From: Parvularia atlantis
Taxonomy: Eukaryota; Opisthokonta; Rotosphaerida
Reading direction: 5' to 3'
Length of the DNA stretch: 24,588 nucleotides
Assembly (NCBI GenBank): GCA_943704415.1
Contig: CALSCO010002520.1
Span: 1 to 24,588 of the forward strand
In this document: positions 1 through 24,588 of the stretch, piece after piece
Layout: the number at the start of each line of letters is the position of its first letter
Position numbering within the stretch: the first letter of the stretch is position 1
Notes under the pieces: model-generated
Told to the model about the DNA's origin: nothing
The model's input: the letters and a program-made list of their open reading frames with translations, nothing else
The model's database searches: none
Made by a program: the position numbers and the translations under genes

Positions 1-3535
<3,535 letters not shown>

Positions 3536-3592: not shown

Positions 3593-3604
3593 AACCTTCC
3601 AGAA
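3592..3604. promoter_or_regulatory. Heat-shock element (GAAnnTTCnnGAA)
   Basis: The sequence is GAACCTTCCAGAA: three inverted GAA units with exact 5-bp spacing, which is the consensus for the heat-shock factor Hsf1. It ends 7 bp before the AP5B1 ATG and lies 55-67 bp upstream of the FOX2 ATG, so FOX2 is the likelier target. An extra TTC at 3584-3586 may extend it in gapped form. Function is inferred from the motif alone. Confidence 0.6.
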
Positions 3605-3611
3605 GGAATCG

Positions 3612-6600
3612 ATGGACCTGTTCGCGGGCGACGCGGGCGACGCGGGCGTCACGGGCGTGCTGCGGGTGCTCGGGCGGTTCCGGCGCAACCCCGAGTCGTT
3701 CCTGAGCGCGCAGGTGCGTGCGTGTGCGGTGCATTGCACGGTGTGCCCGCGCCGATGCATCGCACGCGTGCAAGGGCATTGACGTCGACCGATGGATCAC
3801 CGAGTGCATCGTCTTCCTCTGCGCCGAGACGCGCGACGATGCCGGCAAGCTGCACATCCTGCAGATGTGGCAGGAGTTCACGCCGCTGCTCTTCGCGCAG
3901 AGCAAGCGGTACGTAGCTGCTGCCCGCCGACACTCAATGTGCCGCTGACTGCGCGCAGCGTCGACAACGTCTTTAACACGCTCATGGGCCTCGTCGCACG
4001 CGAGCCCACGGACGCATCAACGCTGCTGTACTCGCAGGCACGGCGCAGCGACCGCGCATCGCCGCGCCTGCTCACGATGCATGCAGATCGTCGTCAGCCT
4101 CACGTCCATCGCCGTGTGCGTCGCCACGCCGGCCGACCACGCCAAGCTGCTCTCGTCGCTCGTCAACAAGCTGCTCGAGTACGCCAAGGCGAGCAACGCG
4201 CCCGCGTACCGGCTGCTGCGCGACACGGTGGCGCAGGCGCACGCGCGAGGGGGTCGTTGTCGAGGCTCATCCACTGCGCTGCGGCAGGCCCTGCACTGCC
4301 TGATGGAGCTCGAGCGCTCGTACCCGGGCCTGCTCGCGATCAAGCTCGGCCTGTTTATGCAGCTCGCACTCGAGGAGACGTCCCACGTGGCGAGCCAGTA
4401 CGTGCTGCTGTTTGCGCTCGTGCTGCGGCACTACCTCGCGCGCGTGGTGCGCAACGCCTTGTGCCAACAATGTGCATTCATGTGCCTATCAATTTTTCAC
4501 ACACGCGGCGCGGCACCAGGCGCCCACGCTCGAGGTCATCCCGCAGGGGTTCCTCTCGACCGTGCACAAGGGCGTGTTCTCGCTGCCTGAACACCTGACG
4601 CAGCCGCGCAAGAAGCCGACCGCCGACGCCGACGACGCGCCCGTGTTTGTGCCGGCCGACGCGCGCGCGAACAACGAGCAGTGGCTGAAGGTGCGCCGGC
4701 AACGACGATGACGACGCGCTCGTGCGGGGGTGCCAACTGGGCACGTACGCGCACGCAAGGACGTCAAGCGGTGCATCTCGTTCCTGCTCGACAACACCGC
4801 GATTCTCACGCCGCCGCACGTGCAAGAGCTCGTCTCGCTGCTGCTGGACTGCACTGCCGCGACTGACCTGGCCGCCGACATGCTCAAGGCACGCTGGCGC
4901 CGAGCCGACCCAGAGTGCATCTGACACCGTGCGTGACAGCCCCAGTTCTTCCGTCTGTGCATCTCGCACAACGCCACGCTCGTGCATGTCGTGCTCGCGC
5001 TGCGGCAGCGTCTCCCGCGCGACTGGTTCACGGACGAGGACGACCGTCTGCTCGTGCGTCGGCTCGTCGCGCTGTTTGTGACGCCGCAGCGGTGCTTCGT
5101 CGCTGCGCCGCTGCATCTGCGCCTGCCTCACACGGACCGCGCGCGCAGATCAGACGAGGAGCGCTTACTCGTGGCCGAGTGGCTGCTCGACATTGGCGCG
5201 GTGACCGGCCGCTCTGTCGCGCAGGTCTGTGCCGCGTGTGACTGCATATGCGTGTGTCTGACCTGTGCGGACAGTCGCTCCACCCGCTCCGCGGCTGGCT
5301 CTACCCGAGCACGTTCGACTCACTGCGCATCAAGCAGGTGCGCGCAACGGGCCTGAGCGTGCGCGCTCGTGCTAATCGCGCGCCAGGTCAAGTTGCGCCT
5401 ACTCACGCACGCGTTCCAGCCCGGAGGACCGGCAGCACTCGCTCCGCCAGGGTGCGCCTTGCGCCGTGCAGCAACCGCTGCTGACCGCAGGTGTGCGCAG
5501 CGACGTGCTTGAGGTGCTCCGATGCGTGCACGACTTTCGCGTCCTGCCGACGTTTGCGATGCCGGCCAACGTGTGCTTCGATGCGCTGCTCGCGTTCTTG
5601 CGCGTCTTTCCCGAGCTGGGCACGGCCGTGCAGCGGTGCGCCCGCGCAGGCTCGCTTGTGCGCGTGCCACTGACGCGCTGGCGACAGCTTCGTCACTCAG
5701 GTCGTCTTTGAGGCGCCGCGCTTCATCGAGCAGCTCACGCTCCTGACCGAGAGGATACGGCACTACGCGCCCGACACGCGCTTCCCCGTTGAAGTGCTGC
5801 GGACGCTCAGGTGCGCGCCGCACCGATTGGCCCGACCAGCGCACGGCTGATGCGCGCGGCCAGTGCGAGCCTGTGCGAGTGCGACGTGGACGAGTTTGTG
5901 CGCCACGGCGTCGACTACGTGCAGCTGCTCGTGCGCATCGCCAGCGAGCCGGAGATCGACCCAGTGGTACGCTGCTTTTGTGCATCGATGCGGGCACGGC
6001 GGCTGACGATATGCGTGTTCCAGCGGCCCGCGCGGTACCTGCTCGACGTGCTGCGGCTCTCGGCCGTCTGCGAGATCGGCTCGTGGTCCCTGGGCGTGCT
6101 GTTGATTCGGGTGCGCGCGCGTGCCCGCCTCGGGCTGATGGCTGATGTGCCCATGGCCAGGTGGCACGAACGGTGCTGCTGCACCACGCGACGTCGCTCG
6201 TGTTCCACGTCCTGAAGGACCTGCTGTCACACATGACCGTGTACTACGCCGATGTGGGTGCGTGGCGTGTGCGCGCGCACGGCAGCACACGTGCGGCCTG
6301 ACCGTGATGGCCGGCCGCAGACATCCGCGAGCAGGCCGGCTTCCTCCTGCTCATCCTAACGCACCTGTCGCGCGAAAAGTTGCTGCGCGTGCTCGACGCG
6401 GCCAAGAGCATGTCGATCGACTTTTCCGTCGGTGCGCCGCCCGCAGAGCGTCTGGGGCGTTTCGGTGACATACCTGCACGCCTGCACGCGTGCGCGCGCA
6501 GACGGCCTCGCCACGGGCCCGTCCGCGTTCCCAAAGGTGCGCCGAGGCGCTCGCGGGGCCGTGCATCGCTCACCCCAGTTCTCACGCAGGTGGTGCCGAT

Positions 6601-7959
6601 TCAGCACGTGCCCGTCGCGTTCCTGTCGTTCGTGCGCGCCGCCTTGCCACGCTCGCACGTGCACCGACTGAAGCAGCAACGGCGAGCGCACAGCGGTACG
6701 CGCTCGGCGTCGTGTGCGCAAAGCCGGTGCTCACGCGCGAGCAGACGCGATGCTGCAGCTGCGCCTGCCCGAGTACCTCGCGGCCCTGCAGCGGCTGGAG
6801 CGCGTCCCTGCGACGCTCGACCTGCTGCTGCGCTACGACGGTGCGTCGCGACCTGTGCTGCTCTTGTCAGCTGCTGAGCGTGGCCGCGTGCAGAGGCCAT
6901 GCTCGCGCGGAGGGACGTGCCGTTCTTCCCGCTCAAGGTCTTCTCGCTCGTTATTGACCTGCACACGAGCGTGCCCATCGGCGGCGACGTGTGCGTGAGC
7001 GTGCCGTACCTCGAGGCGCCGCCCACAGCCGCGGCCGTGGCCGACACGCTGCCTGGTGCGCCACGCGCGCCAAGTGTTGCCGACGGGGTGGATTGCTCAT
7101 GCACCGCCGCGCGCCGCAGATAAGTTTCCGTTCCAGTATGCGCTACAAGTCGACTTGCCGCTGCAAGTGCCCTCGCCGGCATGGCTCCGCATCGCAGCGC
7201 AGTTCAATACGTACGCGGCGCGGCCTGGCTGTGCGTGTGTGCGCGCGCACTCATCCGTCGCATCGCGCGTGTAGGGTCGACGGCGTGTCGCAGAGCACGC
7301 AGCTCGAGCCGCTGCGCGTGGGCTTTGAGGACCTGCTGATGTGCGTCGCGGGCGAGGTGCGCATGTACCGCTGCGGCTTAGTGTGTGTGCGCGCTTACCC
7401 GGGCCGGCAGGGCACGCCGGGCGAGCACGCAGCGGCCCTGTTTGAGCGGCTGTGGTCGCTGCTTGGCCGCCTGTCGGACGCCGAGGCGGACGGCAGCAGC
7501 GGGTCGGACAAGTTTGCCGAGGAGGTCGCACAGTTGCTGCTGCAGCGGTACTTGTCATCCGTGCGCACAGCACAACAGCGTCGCTGACTGTGACGCCGTG
7601 CGCAGCTCGCCCGAGCTAGCCGCGGTCGAGTCGGTCAAGTACCTCATGGTGACCGGGCGGGAGATGGTGCGGCTCGTGCGCGAGCGGTTCGAGCCGTTTC
7701 TGGTGCCGGGCGACGGCGACGGTGCGCTTCCCGCCGTGCGCTTATTCTGGCCGCTTTGCTGACCTCGTCGTGCGCGTGACAAGACGTGCTGCGGACGCTG
7801 TTCTTTGTGCCGCCGCGCAACCACGTGCTGTGCCAGTTTGCCGTCGGTCACGACTCGACCGTCGTCTCAATCCGCACGGACGCGTGGCGCACGCTGGCGT
7901 ACCTGGACGGGCTGCTCGAGGCGCTGGTGCTAGAGATGTCCGACGATCAGGTGGTGTAA
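3612..7959 (+). CDS. AP5B1: AP-5 adaptor complex subunit beta (AP5B1)
   Basis: Large subunit of AP-5, the clathrin-independent adaptor of late endosomes and lysosomes. The spliced product is 1004 residues (human AP5B1 about 880). Landmarks shared, from memory, with animal AP5B1 appear in order: NPESFLSAQ near the N-terminus; LHCLMELERSYPGLL; ISFLLDNTAILTP; FTDEDDRLLVRRLVAL; and, in the C-terminal appendage, VGFEDLL, FERLWSLL, VRERFEPFLV and IRTDAWRTLAYLDGLLEAL. The middle is helical, HEAT-like. Exons: 3612-3713, 3775-3908, 3959-4037, 4087-4446, 4520-4690, 4760-4888, 4946-5091, 5149-5224, 5275-5337, 5387-5451, 5501-5635, 5688-5810, 5864-5966, 6024-6110, 6161-6257, 6321-6464, 6502-6536, 6590-6695, 6745-6840, 6894-7055, 7120-7210, 7275-7356, 7411-7547, 7606-7721, 7784-7959. 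Two introns are GC-AG and three use AAG acceptors. A further 60-nt in-frame intron at 4228-4287 is possible and would make LRDT join ALHCLMELE. The exon-18 tail (after 6650) is less certain. No other AP-5 subunit is in the window. Confidence 0.87.
4038..4086 (+). other. GC-AG intron (donor GCACGG) in AP5B1
   Basis: LLYSQ joins IVVSLTS in phase 0. There is no GT in the first 39 nt after the exon end, so a GC donor is needed. A GCTCAC branch-like site lies near the acceptor. Confidence 0.72.
4889..4945 (+). other. GC-AG intron (donor GCACGC) in AP5B1
   Basis: DMLK joins FFRLC in phase 0. The intron is a multiple of three but carries an in-frame stop, and the only GT donors are out of phase. 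Contains CTGAC. Confidence 0.72.
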
Positions 7960-8007: not shown

Positions 8008-11000
8008 TCACTCGGTCTTCTTCGCGTGCGCCTCGAGCACGGCGACCTGATCGGCCAGCTTGCGCACGAGCTTGTGCAGCTCCTCCAGTTCGTTTTTGAC
8101 CTTGTCCGCCAGCGGCGCCTGCGTGTGCACGCGCGCGCGCCGTTGAGCGAGCATCGTTGACTGTGCACGCACTCACGTCGCCATGCGCGCGGATGTCTCG
8201 CATGTGCTGCTCGAGGACGGGAATGTCCTGCTCGGCCGTCATGGACCGCATCGCCTCGAGCGCGCCCAGCTGCTCGCCGGCGCCGAGGCGGGCGAGTGCG
8301 TCCACGACCGCATCGCGCACTCGCCACTGCGGCGGCCGCAGCGACTGAGCGCGCACGTTGGCCGACACGGCAAGCGCACCTGCGGGTCGCGCAGTAGCTG
8401 CGCAATATGCTCGGCCGCGTCGCGACGGACCTCGGTCGGGTGCCGAGCCGCCGCACTGGCGTACGCGTCTGCGCCCGCCACAAAATCAGCCGTGCGAGCG
8501 ACGGCCGCACACGGAGCACGCACTGATGGCCACGGGGCGCGTGACGTCGGGCAGCTTGCCGTACATGATCGCGTCGCGCAGAAACGGCAGCACTAGCCAA
8601 GAGAGACAGGTCAAAGGCGGCGCGACACACGCGACACAAAACATACCGCGTGCGTGGCCGTGCACGCCGAGGCCAGCCAGTGCGCCCTCGCGCACGACGC
8701 CGTGCGGGCTGCTGTCACGCACCGCCGGGTCCGCCTTGGCCAGCAGCAGCGCCAGGTCGTCCTCCGCCTGCACACGGTGCGATGTCAGCGCGCGCCCAGA
8801 CCGCGTGCGCAAAAAAAAAAAAAAAACGTGCCGCGTGCTTGCCGAGCGCCTTGAGCGTGGCCCAGTGCGCACGCGGCGGCAGATCTGCGCGCTGCAGGAG
8901 GCGCAGCAGTGCGCTGCGCAGCACGGGCTCCTTCACGGTGCAGTGCGATGCTGCGCCCGATGGCTCAGCGGGCGCGAACGGAGTGCAAACGGCACACCGA
9001 TCTGCCACAGCGCCATCGGGTCGCGCTCGCGGTCGAGCAGCTCGGCCAGGATCTCGAGCGCGCGGTGCGCGTGCGAGGCTGCAAGGGCCTCGGCGGCCTG
9101 TGTGGCGCACGCATGAGCGGTCGCATGAGCGGTCGCATGCACGAAGCGCGGCCCACGGTCACACCTTGACGCGCACGCCGTAAAATTTCTCCGTCTGCAT
9201 CGCAGCCCGGACGGCCACGAGCGCAGACACGCTGCCGGCCTTGACCAGCTCGGTGACGGCGCGCACACGCGACACAACGTCGGGCGCGTGCACGAGCGCG
9301 TGCTTGAGCAGGTCCTCGCCCGGGTGGAACTCACCCAGCGCAAACAGCGTCGTCATGTCCGGGTCCACGCGCACCATCAGCGGCTGGGCGCCCTCGGGCA
9401 GCGCCACGACCGTCGTGGCCTTGCGCTGGCGCGGCTCGGTCATGTCGACGGTCGCCGTGATCGGCGTCGTGGGCGCTGCGCCTGCTCGGCCGTCAGCCGG
9501 CTTCATGGCTGCCGCATGCGCTCCGTGCGCACTGTCTGCGCCGTGCACCGTCACGACCACCGGCAAGCGCAGGCCAAAGGTGGTGTGGTCGGCCGACTGC
9601 GTCTGGGAGACGGTTACCTTGGCCGTGTGCGCCTCGGCGTCGTGGTCAAACTCGACTGTGACGACAGGGGGGGGCATGAGCATATGGCGCGCGGTCGGGC
9701 ACGGCGGCGCACCCGTCAGCACCGGGTAGCCCTTGCCATAGATCCACTCGTCGAAAAAGCGGTGCAGGTTCTGGCCCGAGACCTGCGCCGCGGCGTGCAC
9801 TCGTGTTGGCTGCGACTGCGTGTGCGCGCAGGCGTTCTGCAACGCGACCTCCTCGAGGCACTCGCGAAAGTGCTCGGTCTCAACAACCTTGCCCAGGTAG
9901 CGCGCGACATAGTTTTGCACACCCTGCGCCGGCGCGCATGTGAGCACCCAACTGCAACAGACGCTGCGCGCAAGGGACCTGCCAGAAGGCCTGCTCGCCC
10001 AGCGTCTTGCGCAGCATGTGCAGGCGCCAGCTGCCGCCCTGCGTGCGCACGCACTTGAGCGAGCCGGTGCCGCTGCGCGGTCACTGGGGCACGCACAGGG
10101 TACAGGTGCGCGTCAAACATCATCCAGCTGCTGTTGAACGTGCGCGTGACGATCGGGCGCGCGTACGACTCGACCTGCGCTCGCGGGTTGGAGCACGAGC
10201 GAGCATGAAGGCAGCACGCGCGCACCTCCTGCATGTACGACGCGGCCTGGTCGAGCATCTCCCACTGGAAGGCGTCCTCGCCCATGTGGTCCTGCACCCT
10301 GTACATTGGCACCGCGCGGTCAGCCTCACCCGGAGGGCAGCGACACGAGGCGCACCAGCACGCCTCGATGTACGTCGCCCAGCTCTCCTTGAGCCACGCG
10401 TGCTCAAAGTGGCGGATCACCTGCACGCGCGTGCACGTGCGCTTGTTATGGCTGGCATAAGGAGCGGCTCGCGAATGGCGTGCGCACGAGCATGTCGCCG
10501 AAAAAGCTGTGGGCCATCTGTCGCGGCGCCCAGTTAGCGAGCCGGCGCTACCGACGCCCGCACACACCTCGTGGATGTTGACCAGGTTGAACAGATATTG
10601 GCGCTCGGCCGCGAGCGTCTCGTCGACGAGGTAGCGCGAGCCCCACGTGCTGTGCAGGCGCATGTCAGCGACCGCAAGCGACGTCCGGTCGGGGGACGCA
10701 CACGAGCGAGATGTTCTCCATTGCGCCGCCCATGACAGGCGCTGCGAACTGGTAGTACTTGGGGAAGGGGAACGGCTGGTTGAGCTTGCGCGTGAGCCAT
10801 GTGAGCATCGGCTTGGTCTCCTGCGAGGCCCGGCGCACGAGTCAGTGATGCGGCGTGTGAGTACCGCACGCGCCTTGAACGACTGCGCCAGCCAGCCCGC
10901 GGGCAGGCTGCGTGGGCCAAAGTACGCGACGGGCATGCCCTCGTGTTCGCCGTCGTCGACCTGCGGCGGTGTCAGGCGCTGGTGGGCCGGGGCGACAGCG

Positions 11001-12029
11001 ACGCGCGCCTTCTGCAGGTCGCCGGCGGCAAAGCACGCGAGATATGTCGGACACGGCACGTCGAGGCGCCAGCTGGTCAGAGGGTGTGTCAGCCGTGTGC
11101 AAGTCACGCGGGGCGGCGCACGCGGCACACCTCACGGTCTTGGTGCCGTCGCCGTGCGCGGTCTCGCCGAGCAGGCGGCCGTTGGCGATCGCGGTGTGCT
11201 CACGCTGCACGCGCAGGTGGAACTCCCACGTCGAGCGGACCTGCGCGCGCACGATCAGCAGTGACGCGACACACGCACGCGTGGGGAGTGGGGCGCACGG
11301 TCGGGTAGTCGACGCACGGTAGCCAGTAGCGCGCACGCTCGGTCTCATGGTCGGTCATGACCTGCACGGCACGGATGAGGAGCACAGAGGGCGACCAGCA
11401 GCGGCACTCGCCATCGGTGAGCAGGTCGGGTACGCTGCGTCCGGCGTGTCAAACAGCAGGCCCGTGAGCGGCTCGCGCACGCTGCACAACGTCGTCAGAC
11501 GAGCGCACCGGTACGTCAGCACAGACACACGGGCGCGCACCGGTACGTCAGCACGACCGTGCGCTCCTCCCCCGCCGTCGCGAGCGGCGCGGCCCACGTC
11601 AGGCGCATCTTGCGGCCGTCGTAGCGGCTCGCGGCCAGCGCTGGCTGCGCGCTCTGCACGGCGAGGCCGTCGAGGCCGATTGCGTTGAGCACGACCGTGC
11701 GCTCCTCTGCCGCGCCGTGAGCCCACGTGCGGGCAGTGCGGCGGGCGCGCACGGGACGCGACGTTGGCACGCAGCACGATCTCGACGACAGCGTCGGCCG
11801 CGTGCGCCGGCAGATCGAGCGTGAGGCGGACGGCTGTGCGCGCGCGTCTCGCCGCATCGGTTCGTAGCTCAGCAGCGGCCATCGGGCGCGCACTGTAGTG
11901 CCGCGGCGTGAAGGCCGTGTGCGGCGCGTAGCTCGGCGCGGCCGTGGCCTCGGCGAACGGCGCGGCGGCCGAGGCGGCCCGGCCCGCATCCGCGTCGCGA
12001 TGGTGCGCGTGGCAGCGGTGGTGCGGCAT
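8008..12029 (-). CDS. M1-family zinc aminopeptidase with HEAT-repeat tail
   Basis: Predicted to remove N-terminal residues from peptides. The spliced product is 897 residues. The N-terminal beta domain contains RYWLPCVDYPT; GAMEN (residues 296-300) binds the substrate amino end; HEMAH (330-334) and Glu353 complete HExxH-x18-E. The spacing is exactly 18, so the zinc site is intact, unlike in the related TFIID subunit TAF2, where it is degenerate. FFDEWIYGKGYP follows, then a beta domain, HEAT-like repeats (about 590-845, e.g. WRVRDAVVDALARLG) and a short C-terminal coiled coil (861-897). No signal peptide or membrane segment is seen. Exons (high to low): 12029-11894, 11833-11753, 11706-11541, 11481-11412, 11361-11299, 11240-11131, 11072-11003, 10960-10865, 10820-10702, 10649-10568, 10517-10488, 10420-10356, 10298-10226, 10174-10097, 10038-9979, 9923-9849, 9782-9713, 9655-9165, 9097-8998, 8950-8832, 8767-8647, 8592-8524, 8468-8380, 8326-8177, 8118-8008. 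Less certain junctions: 11411, 11002, 10864. Confidence 0.91.
8768..8831 (-). other. GC-AG intron (donor GCACGT) with T16 tract in the aminopeptidase
   Basis: LGKHA joins AEDDLALLL in phase 0; the overlapping GT donor three bases on would shift the frame. A run of 16 T (coding strand) follows the donor directly, and CTGAC marks the branch. Confidence 0.68.
8811..8826. repeat. A16 homopolymer in an aminopeptidase intron
   Basis: Sixteen A on the plus strand (T16 in the transcript), just after the donor of a GC-AG intron. Confidence 0.95.
9111..9140. repeat. 12-bp tandem repeat, 2.5 copies
   Basis: GCATGAGCGGTC at 9111 and 9123, then a partial third copy, within aminopeptidase intron 9164-9098. 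Confidence 0.9.
11362..11411 (-). other. Probable GC-AG intron (donor GCGAGT) in the aminopeptidase
   Basis: No GT in this stretch gives phase 0. GCGAGT does, and yields AYPTCSPMVMTDHE before RYWLPC, which fits the family spacing. A second GC (GCGTAC, upstream) also fits, so the donor is not certain. Confidence 0.5.
11503..11554. repeat. 32-bp-period duplication of a splice donor
   Basis: Twenty identical bases at 11503-11522 and 11535-11554. On the minus strand each copy reads TGACGTACCG then GTGCGC, so the exon-3 donor of the aminopeptidase is present twice. Confidence 0.9.
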
Positions 12030-12915: not shown

Positions 12916-15900
12916 ATGGCGGCGACCGGGATGTCGCGGGAAGCCGCGGCGGCGGCGGCGGCGGCGGCGGCGGCCGACGTGGCCGACCTCACGCGCCTCG
13001 CGACGCTCGACGAGGCGGCGATCCTCAACACGCTCAAGGTGCGTTGGTGCTGCGCGTCGCCGTGTGTGTGGGGGGGGGGGCCACGACTGGGGATCACGGT
13101 CGCCCGTCGCGTTCGCGGTAAACAACGAGCTCACGGCGGCGGCGGCAGGCACGCTTCGCTGCCAACCGGATCTACACGCACATCGGCGACATCCTCCTGG
13201 CCGTCAACCCGTACAAGCCCGTGCGTGCCGCGGCGGTCGCCCGTGCGGCGCACGCGTGCCTTAAACCCGTGGCCTGACGCAGCTGCCGATCTACGACGAC
13301 GCGCACGTCCGCCGCTACAGCGCGCCCAACAGCGGCATGCACGACTTCCCGCACATCTACGGCTTTGCGGCGGCCATCTACCACGGCATGCGCGGCAGCC
13401 TGGTCGACCAGGTGCGCGCCCTCCGCGCCGCGCTGTGTGTCGTGTGCGCCAACCGCACCGCAGTCGGTCATCGTCTCGGGCGAGTCGGGCGCGGGGAAGA
13501 CCGAGTCGGCCAAGCACATCCTGTACTGCCTGTCCAAGGTGGCGGCGCCTGCGCTCTGCTGCTGCGCGAGAGGGGGCTGATCGCGACCGGGGTGGGCAGC
13601 TGAGCGGGTCCGAGGGCAGCATCAGTCGGCAGACCGTGGCCGGGTCCAACCTGCTCGAGTACGTCGGCAACGCCAAGACGATCCGCAACCGCAACTCGTC
13701 GCGCTTCGGCAAGTTTCTCTTCCTCAAGTTCAACAACCGCGGGCAGATGGTGCGCGGGCACCGGTGTAGCGCCAACACATGCTCACACGGCGCGCGCACA
13801 CAACAAACAGGTCGGCGCCAACATGACCACCTACCTGCTCGAAAAGTCGCGCATCGTCCAGCGCAGCGAGCACGAGCGCAGCTACCACATCTTCTACGCG
13901 CTGCTCCGTGGCGCGCCCGAGCCCCTGCGCCAGCGCCTCGGCCTGCTCGACGTGACGCAGTACTACTACCTCAAGATGAGCGCGCTGGACGCGCCCGATA
14001 CGGACGACCGGCTCAACTTCCGCACGGTCACCGAGCTCATGACGGTGCTCGGCTTTGGCGCCGACGAGCAGGTGCGGCTGTGGCATGCGAGCGCGGCCCG
14101 CTGGCGTGACACTCGCGCGGCGTTGGCAGGAGCTGCTGCTGCGTCTCGTCGCGGCCGTGCTGGCCGTGGGCAACATCGAGTTTGCCTCAACGAGCGACAC
14201 CAACGACGCGCCGCAGATCATCAGCAAGGCCGGTCCGTGATGCCTCTCAGGCGCGCGCAGTGTTGTACTCACACACGCGCGCGTGTGTAGCGCTCGAGCA
14301 CGCCGCGCAGCTGCTCTACGTCGGCGCCGACGACTTGCGTGCCGCACTCACGTCCAAGACAACGACGACGCAGGAGCAGAAGGGCGAGACGTTCAAGATC
14401 GCGCTGAGCATGTCGCAGGCGGTCGACGCGCGCGACGCCCTCGCCAAGGCGCTATACCAGGGCATGTTTGACCAGCTGCTGCGCATGACCAACGCGGCGA
14501 TCAACATCGACGAGCGGTGCGCGCGCATCTGCTGCGCTCGTCCGCCCGCCGCCGCTGACGGCCTGCGCGCACACAGCTTCCGCGAGACGCTCGCGCACGA
14601 GGGCCAGAGCGATGGCCTGTGCCACGTCGGCGTGCTCGACATCTTCGGCTTTGAGAACTTCCCGGTGCGGGCGCTGCGCAGGTGGTCTGGCTCGCGACTG
14701 ACACGGAGGGCTGCTGCAGCACAACTCGTTCGAGCAGCTCTGCATCAACTACGCCAACGAGCGCCTGCACCAGTTCTTCAACCACAAGCTGTTCCAGATC
14801 GAGCAGCAAGAGTACAACAACGAGGCACGCACCGCGCTGTCGCGCATACGTGAGGCTAAACGGTCGGCTGACGCGCGGGTCCGCACAGGCGATCGACTGG
14901 AAGTACATCGACTTTACGGACAACCAGGCCACGCTCGACCTGCTCAGCAAGGTCCGTTGGCGCGCAGACGGCGCCTCACGTGCCGCCTCACAGTGCCGCG
15001 CACTCAGCGGCCCGTCGGCATCTTCTACTTGATTGACGAATCGTGCCTGCTGCAGCAGTCGACCGACGAGATCCTGCTCGGCAAGATCCGCAGGTGCGCA
15101 CCGTCATGTGCCGCGCACGCACGGAGAGGCTGAGGTGCCTGTGCCACCGCAGTGAGTGGTCTGCGCACGAGCGCTTCGTCAAGGCGACCACGTCCGGCAC
15201 GTCCAAGATGTCGTTTGCGATCGTGCACTTTGCCGCGCCGGTCAGTGCGACGCGCAGCTGCCTCGGTCGTGCGGCTGAGGAACGCGTGTGCGCGCCTAGG
15301 TCGAGTACTCAATCGCGGGCTTCATTGCCAAGAACCAGGACTTTTTCCACCCGGACCTGCAATACCTGCTGCGCAACAGCCGGAGCGAGTTCTTCGGCCG
15401 GGTGCGTGACGGGCACGGCGTCGCGACTTGCTCGCTGCGCTGAACGTCAACGCGCAGCTGTTTGACCCGGAGGTCTTTGGTGTGACCGGCGGGAACGCCG
15501 GCGCGATCGCGGCCGGACTGGCTGATGGATCTTCCGACACGGCGACCGCTACGCCGACGACGGCGCGGCCGGCGTGCGTGCCTCGAGCTGCAGCGCACGA
15601 GCACGCGAACGCTCGCTGAAACGGCGTGCTTGCAGCGGCGCCAAGCTCACGAGCCACATGCGCGCTGGCAGCGTGTCGGAAATTGAGCCGCCGCGCGCGC
15701 CGTGCGTGCCACCGTATGCACCCTACTCGGCTCACTCGCATGGCGCGCACAGCACCTTTGACAAGAGCCGCCGCCCGACGGTGACTACGGCGATGCTGGC
15801 CAGCACGAACCCAAACTCGCCGCTGCTCAAGCTCCACGGCAGTACGTTGGCTGCTGCGCGCGGCGGGCAGCGATGCACTGACGCCGCTCCAGAGTACTCG

Positions 15901-18900
15901 AGCGACACGGCCGCCGTCGACGGACGCAAAAAGTCGACCGAGGCCGACGACGTGCGCACGCATCACTCTCTGTCTCGCATGGCAGCAGGCTGACAGGCGG
16001 GCGTGTGCGTCACAGACAAGGACGCCGACCAAGGCCAAGCCGGCGCTCGTGGCGCAGGCGAGCTCGCCGTCGCTGCCGCGCAAGAAGACGCAGATCCGCA
16101 CGGTCGGCACGCAGTTCAAGGTGCCGCGGCGTTGTTTTTTTTTTTTTTTTTTTTTTTTTTTTTGAAGGCGGGCGCCGTCGCTGACGCCCTGAGGCAGGAC
16201 TCGCTCGAGAGCCTGATGGACACGCTCGAAAACTCGGAGGCGCACTTTGTGTGCTGCATCAAGCCCAACGACCAGCAGGTCTCGGACCTGTACGTGGACG
16301 AGACGGTGCTAAAGGAGCTCAAGTACCTCGGTGCGCGGTCGCACCCTCGTGTGTGCCAGACGCTGACCGTGTGCGGTGCACAAACGCAGGCGTCACGCAG
16401 ACGGTCAGGATACGCAAGGATGGCTACTCGCTGCGCATGCCGTTTCAGCAGTTCTGGAGCAAGTGCATGCGGCCGCGCGATGTAGCGCTGGTGCTGGCGC
16501 TGACGGCGCGCGGTGCGCGGTGCGCGGTGCGCGCACAGGTACTGGATCGTCAGCCCGCGCGCGACCGGCTACCACCCCAAGATCACGGCCGCGGCCAAGC
16601 ACGTCGCGACGATCCTCGCCTCGCTCACGTTCAAGGAGAAGGTCGACTTCCAGGCCGGCAAGACCAAGGTGTGGGCGCGCTCCGCCGTGCTTGCCGTGAC
16701 GTCGCACGCCCGGCAGATCTTCTGCAAGGCGCACGTGCACGACGTGATCGACACGATGCACAACGACAAGATGCGCAAGATCGTCGTCATGATGCAGTCG
16801 CGCGCGCGCATGCTCGTCTGCCGGCGAAGGTAGGGCCTGCGCTGCACCGTGCGCTCGCAAGTGCGCTGACAGGCCGCGGTAGCTTCCTGCGCGCGCGCAA
16901 GCGCATCGTTTCGGTGCAGCGCCAGTTCCGCATGTGGGTCGCCAAGCGCCGCTTCAAGCACAAGCTCAAGGGCTTCCGCGAGGCGATCGCCAAGGCGGAC
17001 AAGTGTGCGTGTTGGCGCCGCTTGTGTGCGAGTCGCGCGCGCAACGGCTGACCGCACATCCATGCGCGCACAGTCAAGGAGCAGCAGGAAGCGATTCGTC
17101 GCTCTCGGTGCGTGAACGACGACGACGCCCATCTTCGCGACTGAATCGTGCGCGTGCAGCGAGGAGGCGCAGAAGGCCAAGCAGGAGGAGATGGAGCGCA
17201 TCAAGGCCGGCCTGCGCTCGATCGACGACCAGGAAAAGTACCTTGACCCGGTCGCGCTGCGCCGCTTCGAAATGAACATTCGGTGCGTCGCGCGCCGCTA
17301 TGGTGCACGTGTGCCCACGCGCGCACGTGCTCTGCAGGCTGCTGTCGCTTCTCACAAAGATCCCTGAGCTCAAGTTGCGGCTCATCTTCAAGCAAGCCAC
17401 CAAGGGCTTTGACCGCCTGGGCTTTATCCGACTGCTGCCAGAGATTGCGCGCTTCAAGGTGCACCGAGCCGGCGTGCGCTGGCCGCGACTGACGCTGCGC
17501 GCAGCCGATCGCGACGGGGCCCGGCGGGATGGTCGCGCTCGAGGACGACCAGGAGGTGTGCGCGTGCGGCTGTGCTTGTTTTGCGCTATGCTGACGCGCA
17601 CGTCGCTGTGCAGAGCGTCGTGCAGGCCCTGTTCAACATCTTCGACAAGGACCGGGACGGCCGTGTCATGCTCAAGGATTTTGTGTCGGTGCTGGCCGTG
17701 GTCAACTTTGGCGGCATCGACGAGAAGGTGCGGTCGCGCGTGCACGCTTCGTCGTCGCGGGCTCAACCCAAGGCGCCGTGCAGTTGGCGCAGGGCTTCAA
17801 GCTGTTTGACGTCGACGGCTACGGCGACTTTACGCGCGACGGACTGCAGCGGACGATGCAGGTGCACCGCGCTCAGCGTGCCATGCATGGACCGCCGCTC
17901 ACGCAGGTCGGCCAGGGCCTCGCGACGCTCTTGGTCAACGCGCCGGCCATCCCGGACAAGCACATCCGGCGCGGCCCGCTGCGCTCGAGCTTCATTCAGG
18001 CACGCCGGCGCGATGCGACACCTTTGCAACGCCCTGATCCCCGTCAACAGGTGCACCTCGACAACGACATCCAGGAGGAAAATATCGGCACCGTCTACGC
18101 GACCGTGCCCGTCACGTCAAAGATGCGCGTGGACGACGTGCGTGGCTGCGCGGCATTCGTGGCGTCGCGTGTCTTTAGCTGTGCCTCAGGTGCTGAAGGA
18201 GGTCGTGCGCAAGCTGAAGCTGCTGGGCGACGTGGCGCAGTTTGCGCTGTTTGAGGTCCGCGTCAGCGCCAACAAGGTGACCGCTGCTGGCTGTGGCGAC
18301 CCCGTGCTCACTGCGCGGCAGATCGTCTTCCAGCGACGCATGGCGCTGCGCGAGAAGCCGATCGAGGCGCTTGAGCGGTGGCAGACGTGTGACTGCGTGG
18401 GCTCAATGCATTTTCTCCTGGCGCGACCGAGTTTGTGCGCAGCAGCGGTTTTGTTGGCTGGCTGGCAGGAAGCTGATCGCCCGCGCGCGTGCTTGCCGCA
18501 GCGTCAACGCGTGCGGCAGCACCGCAGACGTCAACAAGGCCGCGGCCGCCGACGGCGCCGGGCTGCGCAAGATGTTCACCGCCACCGGCGCGGCCAAGCT
18601 CGCAACCGCGGCCAAGGGCATGGCCACGGTGTCGCAGCTGCCCTTCAGCCGGAGCGACAGCCTCGGGCGCGGCATCGTGCAGGTGCCCTGTGGCGTGCGT
18701 GTGTGCGGTGGAGATCGGCTGAGGCGGCGCGACTGCAGGTGTTTTCGTGCGCACACGGGCCGGCAAACCGCCTGGGCACGGCAGGGCGGCGCTCGGTGCA
18801 GACGTACACGTACAAATCTTTGCCGATCGAGGCCAACGTGACGGCGTCGAGCCTGATGGAGACGTTCAACGCCAAGGCGCGCGTGGGCGGAACCGAGGCG

Positions 18901-20248
18901 CTCAAGGCTGAGGACCTGTGCCTGTACGAGATCCGCTTCAGCAGCAAGGACCAGCTGGTCACGTACGGTGCGTCCTGTAGGCGCGGCCGACGACGTCGCT
19001 CACGCGTAGTTGCGCAGAGCGGCCGGTGCAGCCAAACGACAAGCCGCTGCTTATCATGGCAATGACGAGCTCGACGGACGACGTGGCCAAGTTTCTGATC
19101 GTCGACCGCAAAGAGGTCGCGCCGGCCAGCGTGCATTCTCGCGTGCGCCCACTCACCCGCTCGTGTCGTGCAGGTCTTTCCCGCGCCGCTGCCGGCACAG
19201 ATCGCCAACCCGGAAGTGCGGCAGGTGCGCTTTTCGCCGGGGGGGGGGGGGGGGGGGCATGCGCGTCTCGTGCGGCTTGCTGACGGCACCCGCGCAGGTC
19301 AACGTGTACCTCGAGAACGCAAAGGCCACGCCTGCGACGCCGCGGCCACGGCTCGCGGCCGACTTTACGTTGATGAAGCGGCTGGCCATCCCGATCACGT
19401 GCGTGGCGTGTGCCGAGCGCTTATGCCGGTGCTGTGTTTTGACAGCCGCGCAGCTGGATGACGAGCGAGATGAAGCAGCGCTTCATGGAGGCCGTGCACG
19501 TCGACGGCGACGCGGGCAAGTACGCGCTGCACGAGGTCCAGACGCAGAACGACAAGAAGATCATCTACGGTGCGTGCTGCGCCTGGCATGCTGCGCTGCG
19601 CCTGGCATGCTGCGCTGCGCCTGGCATGCTGCCGTGAGGCTGACGTGCGCGGCAGAGCGCGTGCTGCTGGACGACGAGCGCCCACTGCTGCGCACGCGCG
19701 ACGCACAGGGCCGGCGCGGGAGCATTGACGTACTGTCGGCCATGCCGCAGGTGTGCGGCGTGTGCTGCTTGACGCACGGGCGGTCTGATCGTGCCACGCC
19801 GCCCCTGCGCAGTTTATTCTCGTGAAGCGGCAGGTGCTGGACGAGATCTCGGTCTTGATGCAGCCCGGCAGCGTGTCGGATAACCACCTCAACCGCATGT
19901 CGATTATCGAGCTGCCGACCGAGAAGGACAAGGAGGAGGAGGAGGAGGAGGAGACGCCGCAGGGTGCGCACTCGTTTGGGCTTGTGGCCGTGGTGTGGTG
20001 CGCCTGAAGGCTGCGCAGACTTTGCCGAGACGTTTGCCGACGTGGCGTTCAACGACAACGAGAGCGGCTACATCAACCGCGACGGCTTCCTTGAACGTGC
20101 GTCCTCGCGCGCGGGCGCAGGAGTCCGATGCTGAGATCGCCGCGCGCGTGTGTGTGCAGTGGACGAGGAGCAGGCGTGGCTGATGGAGTACTTCACGCTC
20201 AGCTCCGTCTTCCGCCGCAACAAGTTCCTCACCATCACATCGTACTAG
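12916..20248 (+). CDS. Myosin with IQ motifs, EF-hand and three Ras-association-like domains
   Basis: Actin motor; spliced product 1621 residues in 42 exons. Motor (about 20-870): P-loop GESGAGKT 114-121, switch [10 protein letters not shown] 163-171, switch II DIFGFE 401-406, a roughly 140-residue Pro/Ser/Lys-rich loop-2 insert (about 565-705), CIKPN and the converter. Two IQ-like motifs follow ([14 protein letters not shown] is clearest). An EF-hand has a canonical loop at 1046-1057 ([12 protein letters not shown]); a degenerate one (FDVDGYGD) follows. Three RA-like domains end in ALFEV..REKP, CLYEI..NDKPLL and ALHEV..DDERPLL; then a Glu run and an EF-like motif. Exons: 12916-13038, 13149-13220, 13283-13411, 13464-13538, 13600-13749, 13811-14071, 14130-14232, 14291-14516, 14577-14664, 14720-14824, 14889-14951, 15008-15093, 15153-15240, 15300-15401, 15458-15573, 15636-15841, 15893-15951, 16016-16120, 16198-16330, 16390-16462, 16539-16829, 16883-17004, 17074-17107, 17160-17282, 17338-17458, 17505-17555, 17614-17727, 17784-17861, 17907-17999, 18051-18137, 18190-18276, 18322-18386, 18469-18682, 18739-18967, 19018-19130, 19174-19224, 19298-19398, 19454-19569, 19656-19750, 19813-19963, 20019-20096, 20160-20248. 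Uncertain: junctions near 18378-18468 and 18683-18800; ATG at 12931 is an alternative start. Confidence 0.88.
12943..12975 (+). repeat. (GCG)n alanine tract at the myosin N-terminus
   Basis: GCC/GCG codons encode about eleven alanines before the motor domain. A length-variable, low-complexity stretch. Confidence 0.9.
13070..13080. repeat. G11 homopolymer in the first myosin intron
   Basis: Eleven G after a short GT run, inside the 110-nt intron 13039-13148, the longest intron in the window. Confidence 0.95.
14825..14888 (+). other. GC-AG intron (donor GCACGC) in the myosin motor
   Basis: QEYNNE joins [13 protein letters not shown], a conserved motor segment, in phase 0. The intron length is not a multiple of three, and the two GT candidates inside are out of phase. 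CTGAC lies upstream of the acceptor. Confidence 0.75.
16135..16163. repeat. T29 homopolymer in a myosin intron
   Basis: Twenty-nine T on the coding strand, inside intron 16121-16197, which separates the loop-2 insert from the conserved actin-binding helix. Confidence 0.95.
19239..19257. repeat. G19 homopolymer in a myosin intron
   Basis: Nineteen G on the coding strand, inside intron 19225-19297 at the start of the third RA-like domain. Confidence 0.95.
19577..19632. repeat. 19-bp tandem repeat, about three copies
   Basis: CCTGGCATG recurs at 19582, 19601 and 19620 with identical spacers, inside myosin intron 19570-19655. Confidence 0.9.

Positions 20249-24588
<4,340 letters not shown>

Follow-up and report, generated by a model that had tools for sequence, protein, structure and literature searches.

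The stretch of DNA analysed here (the window) comprises 24,588 nucleotides of contig CALSCO010002520.1 from the Parvularia atlantis assembly GCA_943704415.1. On its plus strand, at 12916..20248, lies a gene of 42 exons which, when spliced by hand, gives one continuous reading frame of 1600 codons. Its splice model and Pfam matches describe a myosin motor joined to a tail with EF-hand motifs and three Ras-association (RA)-type domains. The limits of the gene, and the position of the first EF-hand loop at residues 1046–1057, had been given in a preliminary description of the locus and were reproduced exactly by our independent, hand-made splice model. The protein is best regarded as an orphan unconventional myosin whose combination of tail domains is apparently undescribed.

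The window has a GC content of 68% and the myosin gene is rich in introns. Thirty-nine of the 41 introns are of the GT-AG type and two are GC-AG; the median length is 58 nt (range 43–119 nt). Donors read GTGCG[TCG] in 23 of 41 cases, acceptors are CAG in 38 and TAG in three, and a CT[GC]A motif lies 4–45 nt before the acceptor in 34 of the 41. Retention of 36 introns would break the frame, whilst the status of the other five (8, 16, 28, 29 and 31), which can be read through in frame, is uncertain. The GC-AG introns, at 14825 and 18000 (+), have an apparent common donor, GCACGC, and the second of them, intron 29, may alternatively be an in-frame read-through. Long homopolymer runs lie inside two introns: 29 T at 16135–16163 in intron 18, and 19 G at 19239–19257 in intron 36.

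The motor domain (about residues 21–860) is encoded by exons 1–21, at 12916..16829 on the plus strand, as are all features of the gene given below. It scores 649.4 bits against Myosin_head (PF00063) and retains an intact P-loop (residues 114–121), switch I (163–171), switch II (401–406) and CIKPN element, which places the protein in the myosin superfamily; the motor is probably active. Glu337, the sixteenth residue before the sequence DALAK, stands at what we take to be the TEDS site. An acidic residue at this position removes the need for phosphorylation under the TEDS rule, which suggests that this motor is free of a need for heavy-chain phosphorylation. An N-terminal SH3-like subdomain is unlikely, because no more than about 20 residues precede the motor and the adjoining upstream gene, for ribosomal L17 and divergently oriented on the minus strand, has its start codon about 159 nt away. 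At the position of loop 2, 153 residues (565–717; 15479..16114) separate the sequences LFDPEVF and FKDSLESL. This very long loop is rich in serine, threonine and proline and net basic (52 S+T+P, 19 K+R and 10 D+E, counted over residues 564–717), and alignments of the motor to sequences in the PDB break into two stretches there. Class IX myosins have a large insert in loop 2, like the long loop seen here. The neck has two IQ-like motifs, at residues 870–886 and 893–909 (16783..16955), which match PF00612 weakly in two stretches (13.1 bits against a cut-off of 20.3), and is followed by a charged stretch at residues 911–965 (16959..17244; 15 K+R, 12 D+E) that is probably helical.

Two EF-hand loops follow. 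Loop 1 (residues 1046–1057; 17644..17679) is near-canonical, with aspartate rather than glutamate at position 12, and loop 2 (1082–1093; 17808..17843) is degenerate, with tyrosine at position 5 and glycine at position 12. When the tail piece is scanned, EF-hand_6 matches loop 1 with 34.9 bits against a cut-off of 25, and the match survives at 33.9 bits if introns 28, 29 and 31 are retained. The pair aligns without gaps to residues 62–117 of neuronal calcium sensor-1 (NCS-1)/frequenin (whole-sequence E=1.6e-10), which we take to be EF-hands 2 and 3 of that protein. In the same comparison with PDB sequences 286 matched to E=1, and the best 60 of these 286 are all EF-hand proteins. The EF-hands of the earlier reading are supported by profile, with the qualification that the loop which it called canonical ends in Asp. 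In contrast to NCS-1, there is here only one near-canonical loop, and it is fused to a motor and to RA domains. A third EF-like loop, again with glycine at position 12, can be read near the C terminus (1557–1568; 20051..20086); the C-terminal piece holding it matched no Pfam family to E=10. It is possible that a further degenerate hand, which has no profile support, precedes the first at residues 989–1014.

Between the EF-hand pair and the C-terminal EF-like loop, the RA profile PF00788 (curated cut-off 21 bits) matches the whole protein in three stretches with a combined 58.7 bits (E=8.9e-16), which agrees with the three tandem RA-type domains proposed in the preliminary description. Scored alone, RA1 (residues 1140–1211; 18078..18472) reaches 35.9 bits and RA3 (1409–1504; 19349..19839) 21.2 bits, both above the cut-off. 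RA2 (1282–1370; 18802..19118), which is similar to RA1 and RA3, gives 16.5 bits alone. Retention of introns 28, 29 and 31 still leaves RA1 at 28.3 bits. When the mutual similarity of RA1, RA2 and RA3 was tested against shuffled sequences, 5, 1 and 1 of 2000 shuffles reached the observed score. A chance pattern match was rejected as the source of the RA and EF-hand assignments: Pfam scans of two shuffled tails and one reversed tail returned neither domain, giving in all two unrelated matches below cut-off, one to DUF7931 (E=0.0058), the other to an H-NS domain (E=2.6). A profile built from the three segments matched seven PDB sequences to E=10. The best of these was the RA domain of afadin (9e-5), followed by RASSF5 (0.046), 3ec8 (0.055), two SNX27 entries (0.081 and 0.1) and two APBB1IP entries (both 1.5). 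Although afadin and RASSF5 provide the best PDB sequence matches, their RA domains are not joined to a motor, and the RASSF5 match is weak.

The presence of SNX27 and APBB1IP among these matches bears on what the domains bind. The three may share the ubiquitin-like fold of RA domains without binding Ras-family proteins, serving instead as scaffold or lipid-binding modules, in the manner of the F1 lobe of FERM, by which the motor is linked to a different cargo. RA1 also matches SNX17-27-31_F1_FERM, at 18.1 bits against a cut-off of 26.7, and the copies have diverged strongly, the second and third being 17 and 24% identical to the first. However, PF00788 scores well over the F1 model for RA1, and the top PDB match is an RA domain, that of afadin; we regard a purely non-Ras role for the block as rather unlikely.

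Considering the tail as a whole, Pfam matches of the protein to E=10 comprise 17 families (the HMMER filters drop most weak matches). TH1, SH3, Myosin_tail_1, DIL and chitin synthase are all missing from this list, so the earlier statement that the tail is not that of class I, II, V or XVII is borne out at this threshold. The list also lacks MyTH4, FERM_M and FERM_C, and with them the set of MyTH4, FERM and RA that marks class XXII. C1 and RhoGAP, expected for class IX, are likewise not among the 17 families, and the N-terminal extension is short.

Comparison of the motor with solved structures yields similarity ranks, not a tree, and these are given for the best 60 of 150, 150 and 149 matches respectively. 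With motor and neck together, myosin VIIa ranked first (470 bits), followed by 7kch (448), 7dhw (439), X (432), XV (426), Vc (425) and non-muscle class II (416); 7kch and 7dhw are presumably class XI. Removal of loop 2 and the neck gave much the same picture, with VIIa at 460 bits, 7kch at 435, 7dhw at 424, XV at 419, X at 418, Vc at 415 and class II at 405. When only the C-terminal part of the motor was compared, with the neck, X gave the best match (79.8 bits), ahead of Va (61.8) and XV (56.6), and VIIa stood at 49.2. These ranks lean weakly towards the MyTH4-FERM group of classes VII, X and XV, without assigning the motor to a class.

A survey of 12 fungi describes a class XXII myosin in the chytrid Spizellomyces punctatus that has IQ motifs, two MyTH4 domains, two FERM domains and an RA domain (PMC3942036). 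The present gene is therefore not the first RA-bearing myosin of fungi, and the earlier suggestion of a new link between Ras and actin is weakened. The gene resembles class XXII in its IQ neck, in the presence of RA in the tail and in its place on the fungal side of the opisthokonts, but its tail carries EF-hands together with an RA domain in three copies, and MyTH4 and FERM_M/C are missing from the Pfam list. Class IX myosins, found in metazoa and filasterea, also carry an RA domain; theirs is N-terminal, with C1 and RhoGAP in the tail (PMC3942036), whereas here RA lies in the tail, about 20 residues precede the motor and neither C1 nor RhoGAP was listed. Elsewhere, 79 myosin classes and 287 orphans have been recognised and class 22 confirmed in several fungal lineages (PMC5583752), and classes XV and XXII have been reported in an aphelid, with XV also in Gonapodya and nucleariids (PMC6299283). 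Among the papers listed by searches of the open-licence PMC literature, and in the text passages covered, none was recognised as describing a myosin tail that combines EF-hands and RA, although PMC5583752 and PMC3942036 may show such an orphan in their figures or supplements; the passages covered of PMC2375034 and PMC5378345 hold nothing on such a tail.

The same data raise the question of whether the gene is a highly derived class XXII-type myosin, which would have kept or duplicated RA, and perhaps F1-like lobes, whilst losing MyTH4 and the rest of FERM. The occurrence of class XXII with RA in a chytrid (PMC3942036) and of the class in several fungal lineages (PMC5583752) is in keeping with this, as are the first rank of VIIa, the placing of X and XV near the top and the best match of the C-terminal motor and neck to X. 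Set against it is the lack of MyTH4, FERM_M and FERM_C in the Pfam list to E=10, and the linkers between the RA domains, at about 40–70 residues, are too short to hold either. The class signal of the motor is itself weak, 7kch and 7dhw (presumably class XI) outranking X and XV in two of the three comparisons. Such a derivation appears quite unlikely. Very improbable indeed is a false joining of two neighbouring genes, one for a motor and one for an EF-hand/RA protein: the junction does include a very short exon, exon 23, of 34 nt, but separate genes were rejected on the splice signals and gap lengths, since introns 22–24, which link neck to tail, have GTGCGT donors and CAG acceptors like most others, and the gaps at the junction are 52–69 nt (introns 21–25 being 46–69 nt long) compared with about 159 nt to L17 upstream and about 131 nt to the first ATG of the AROM frame downstream.

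Because the frame is unbroken and the splice signals are of the same kind throughout, we treat motor and tail as one continuous gene. The reading that we favour, at a probability of roughly 0.45, is that this gene encodes an unconventional actin-based motor whose RA block recruits it to Ras/Rap-like GTPases and whose EF-hand module tunes it by calcium. In such a scheme the RA domains would act as a multivalent adaptor, holding the motor at membranes where Ras/Rap-like GTPases are active, and calcium would shift the conformation of the tail through the EF-hands, so that the motor is released or exposed. Loop 2, with its length and net basic charge, may make attachment to actin stronger. The order of elements in the tail is EF, EF, RA, RA, RA, EF-like, and the EF-hands could perhaps form a single sensor that the RA block interrupts, its last hand lying at the C terminus. 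Taken further, early-branching fungi or lineages sister to them might possess a new class of myosin, represented by this protein, in which three tandem RA domains interrupt a calcium sensor of four EF-hands and calcium and small-GTPase signals together gate the motor; this larger proposal we consider doubtful.

Several observations weigh against recruitment by Ras-type GTPases and tuning by calcium. RA2 taken alone falls below the profile cut-off, also with an alternative acceptor (17.7 bits), and its exon 34, folded by itself, gave a mean pLDDT of 50.2 and one helix, an uninformative result. All PDB matches of the RA profile other than afadin are weak. Not all RA domains bind Ras, and the matches to the F1 lobe of SNX27 show that the same fold can serve other partners. 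Calcium binding by the EF loops may be weak or absent, because position 12 is Asp in loop 1 and Gly in loops 2 and 3. The unity of motor and tail is predicted from the DNA sequence. Finally, a search by short peptide patterns for relatives in a collection of viral contigs gave one match for motor plus neck and nine for EF-hands plus RA1, none of which was confirmed as a relative; these scans, which covered viral sequence and say nothing on eukaryote genomes, lend no support to conservation of the architecture.

The neighbouring genes were outlined by codon scoring, rough joining of fragments and a Pfam scan. In addition to L17, the window holds a gene for the beta-oxidation enzyme MFE-2 (21–3318, minus strand), which combines two SDR stretches with a hydratase domain; AP5B1, the beta subunit of AP-5 (3594–7944, plus strand), recognised by matches of fragments to its middle (58.5 bits) and C-terminal (46.3 bits) domains; and a protein of the M1 peptidase family (8011–11707, minus strand; 51.9 bits). 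Downstream of the myosin gene lies an AROM-type fusion of DHQ synthase, EPSP synthase and shikimate kinase (20461–24574, plus strand), which is cut by the end of the window and whose best PDB match is the pentafunctional AROM polypeptide (569 bits). The HExxH motif of the M1-peptidase-family protein was not found in one frame at 9500–11800 of the minus strand; it may be split by an intron, one fragment ending in NIHEV. Two G runs lie in the MFE-2 gene region, of 25 G at 1066–1090 and 18 G at 2654–2671. No RNA family at the gathering threshold and no tRNA was found in the window, and megablast against phage records gave no match.

These neighbours bear on the lineage. MFE-2 with two SDR stretches is the fungal form, and together with the AROM-type gene it fits the earlier description of the myosin as fungal. 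A fungus in the strict sense is not proven by this, as AROM is also found in prokaryotes, apicomplexa, ciliates, oomycetes and euglenozoa (PMC7052976). AP-4 and AP-5 are reported to have disappeared from all Dikarya and from most primitive fungi, subunits of one or the other being found in S. punctatus, B. dendrobatidis, Rhizophagus irregularis and Fonticula alba (PMC5338921). AP-4 subunits have also been reported in basidiomycetes (PMC6057913), so that loss in ‘all Dikarya’ is open to doubt. An AP-5 beta gene, from a complex reported lost in Dikarya, here shares a contig with an AROM-type gene. A dikaryotic fungus was considered unlikely on account of the AP5B1 neighbour, and the genes around the myosin likely point to a non-dikaryan, early-diverging fungus or a close relative such as a nucleariid.

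In conclusion, the standard fungal myosins do not show the combination of EF-hands with three RA-type domains described here. The set of myosins retained in Dikarya is small (PMC3942036), and the extra classes XV and XXII have been placed in chytrids, an aphelid and nucleariids (PMC3942036, PMC6299283). Such a motor, with EF-hands and a triple RA block, from this part of the tree would suggest that control of actin motors by Ras-family and calcium signals was richer near the base of the fungi than model species show, and its tail would provide a defined, expressible object with which to test the gating of a myosin by GTPases and calcium.

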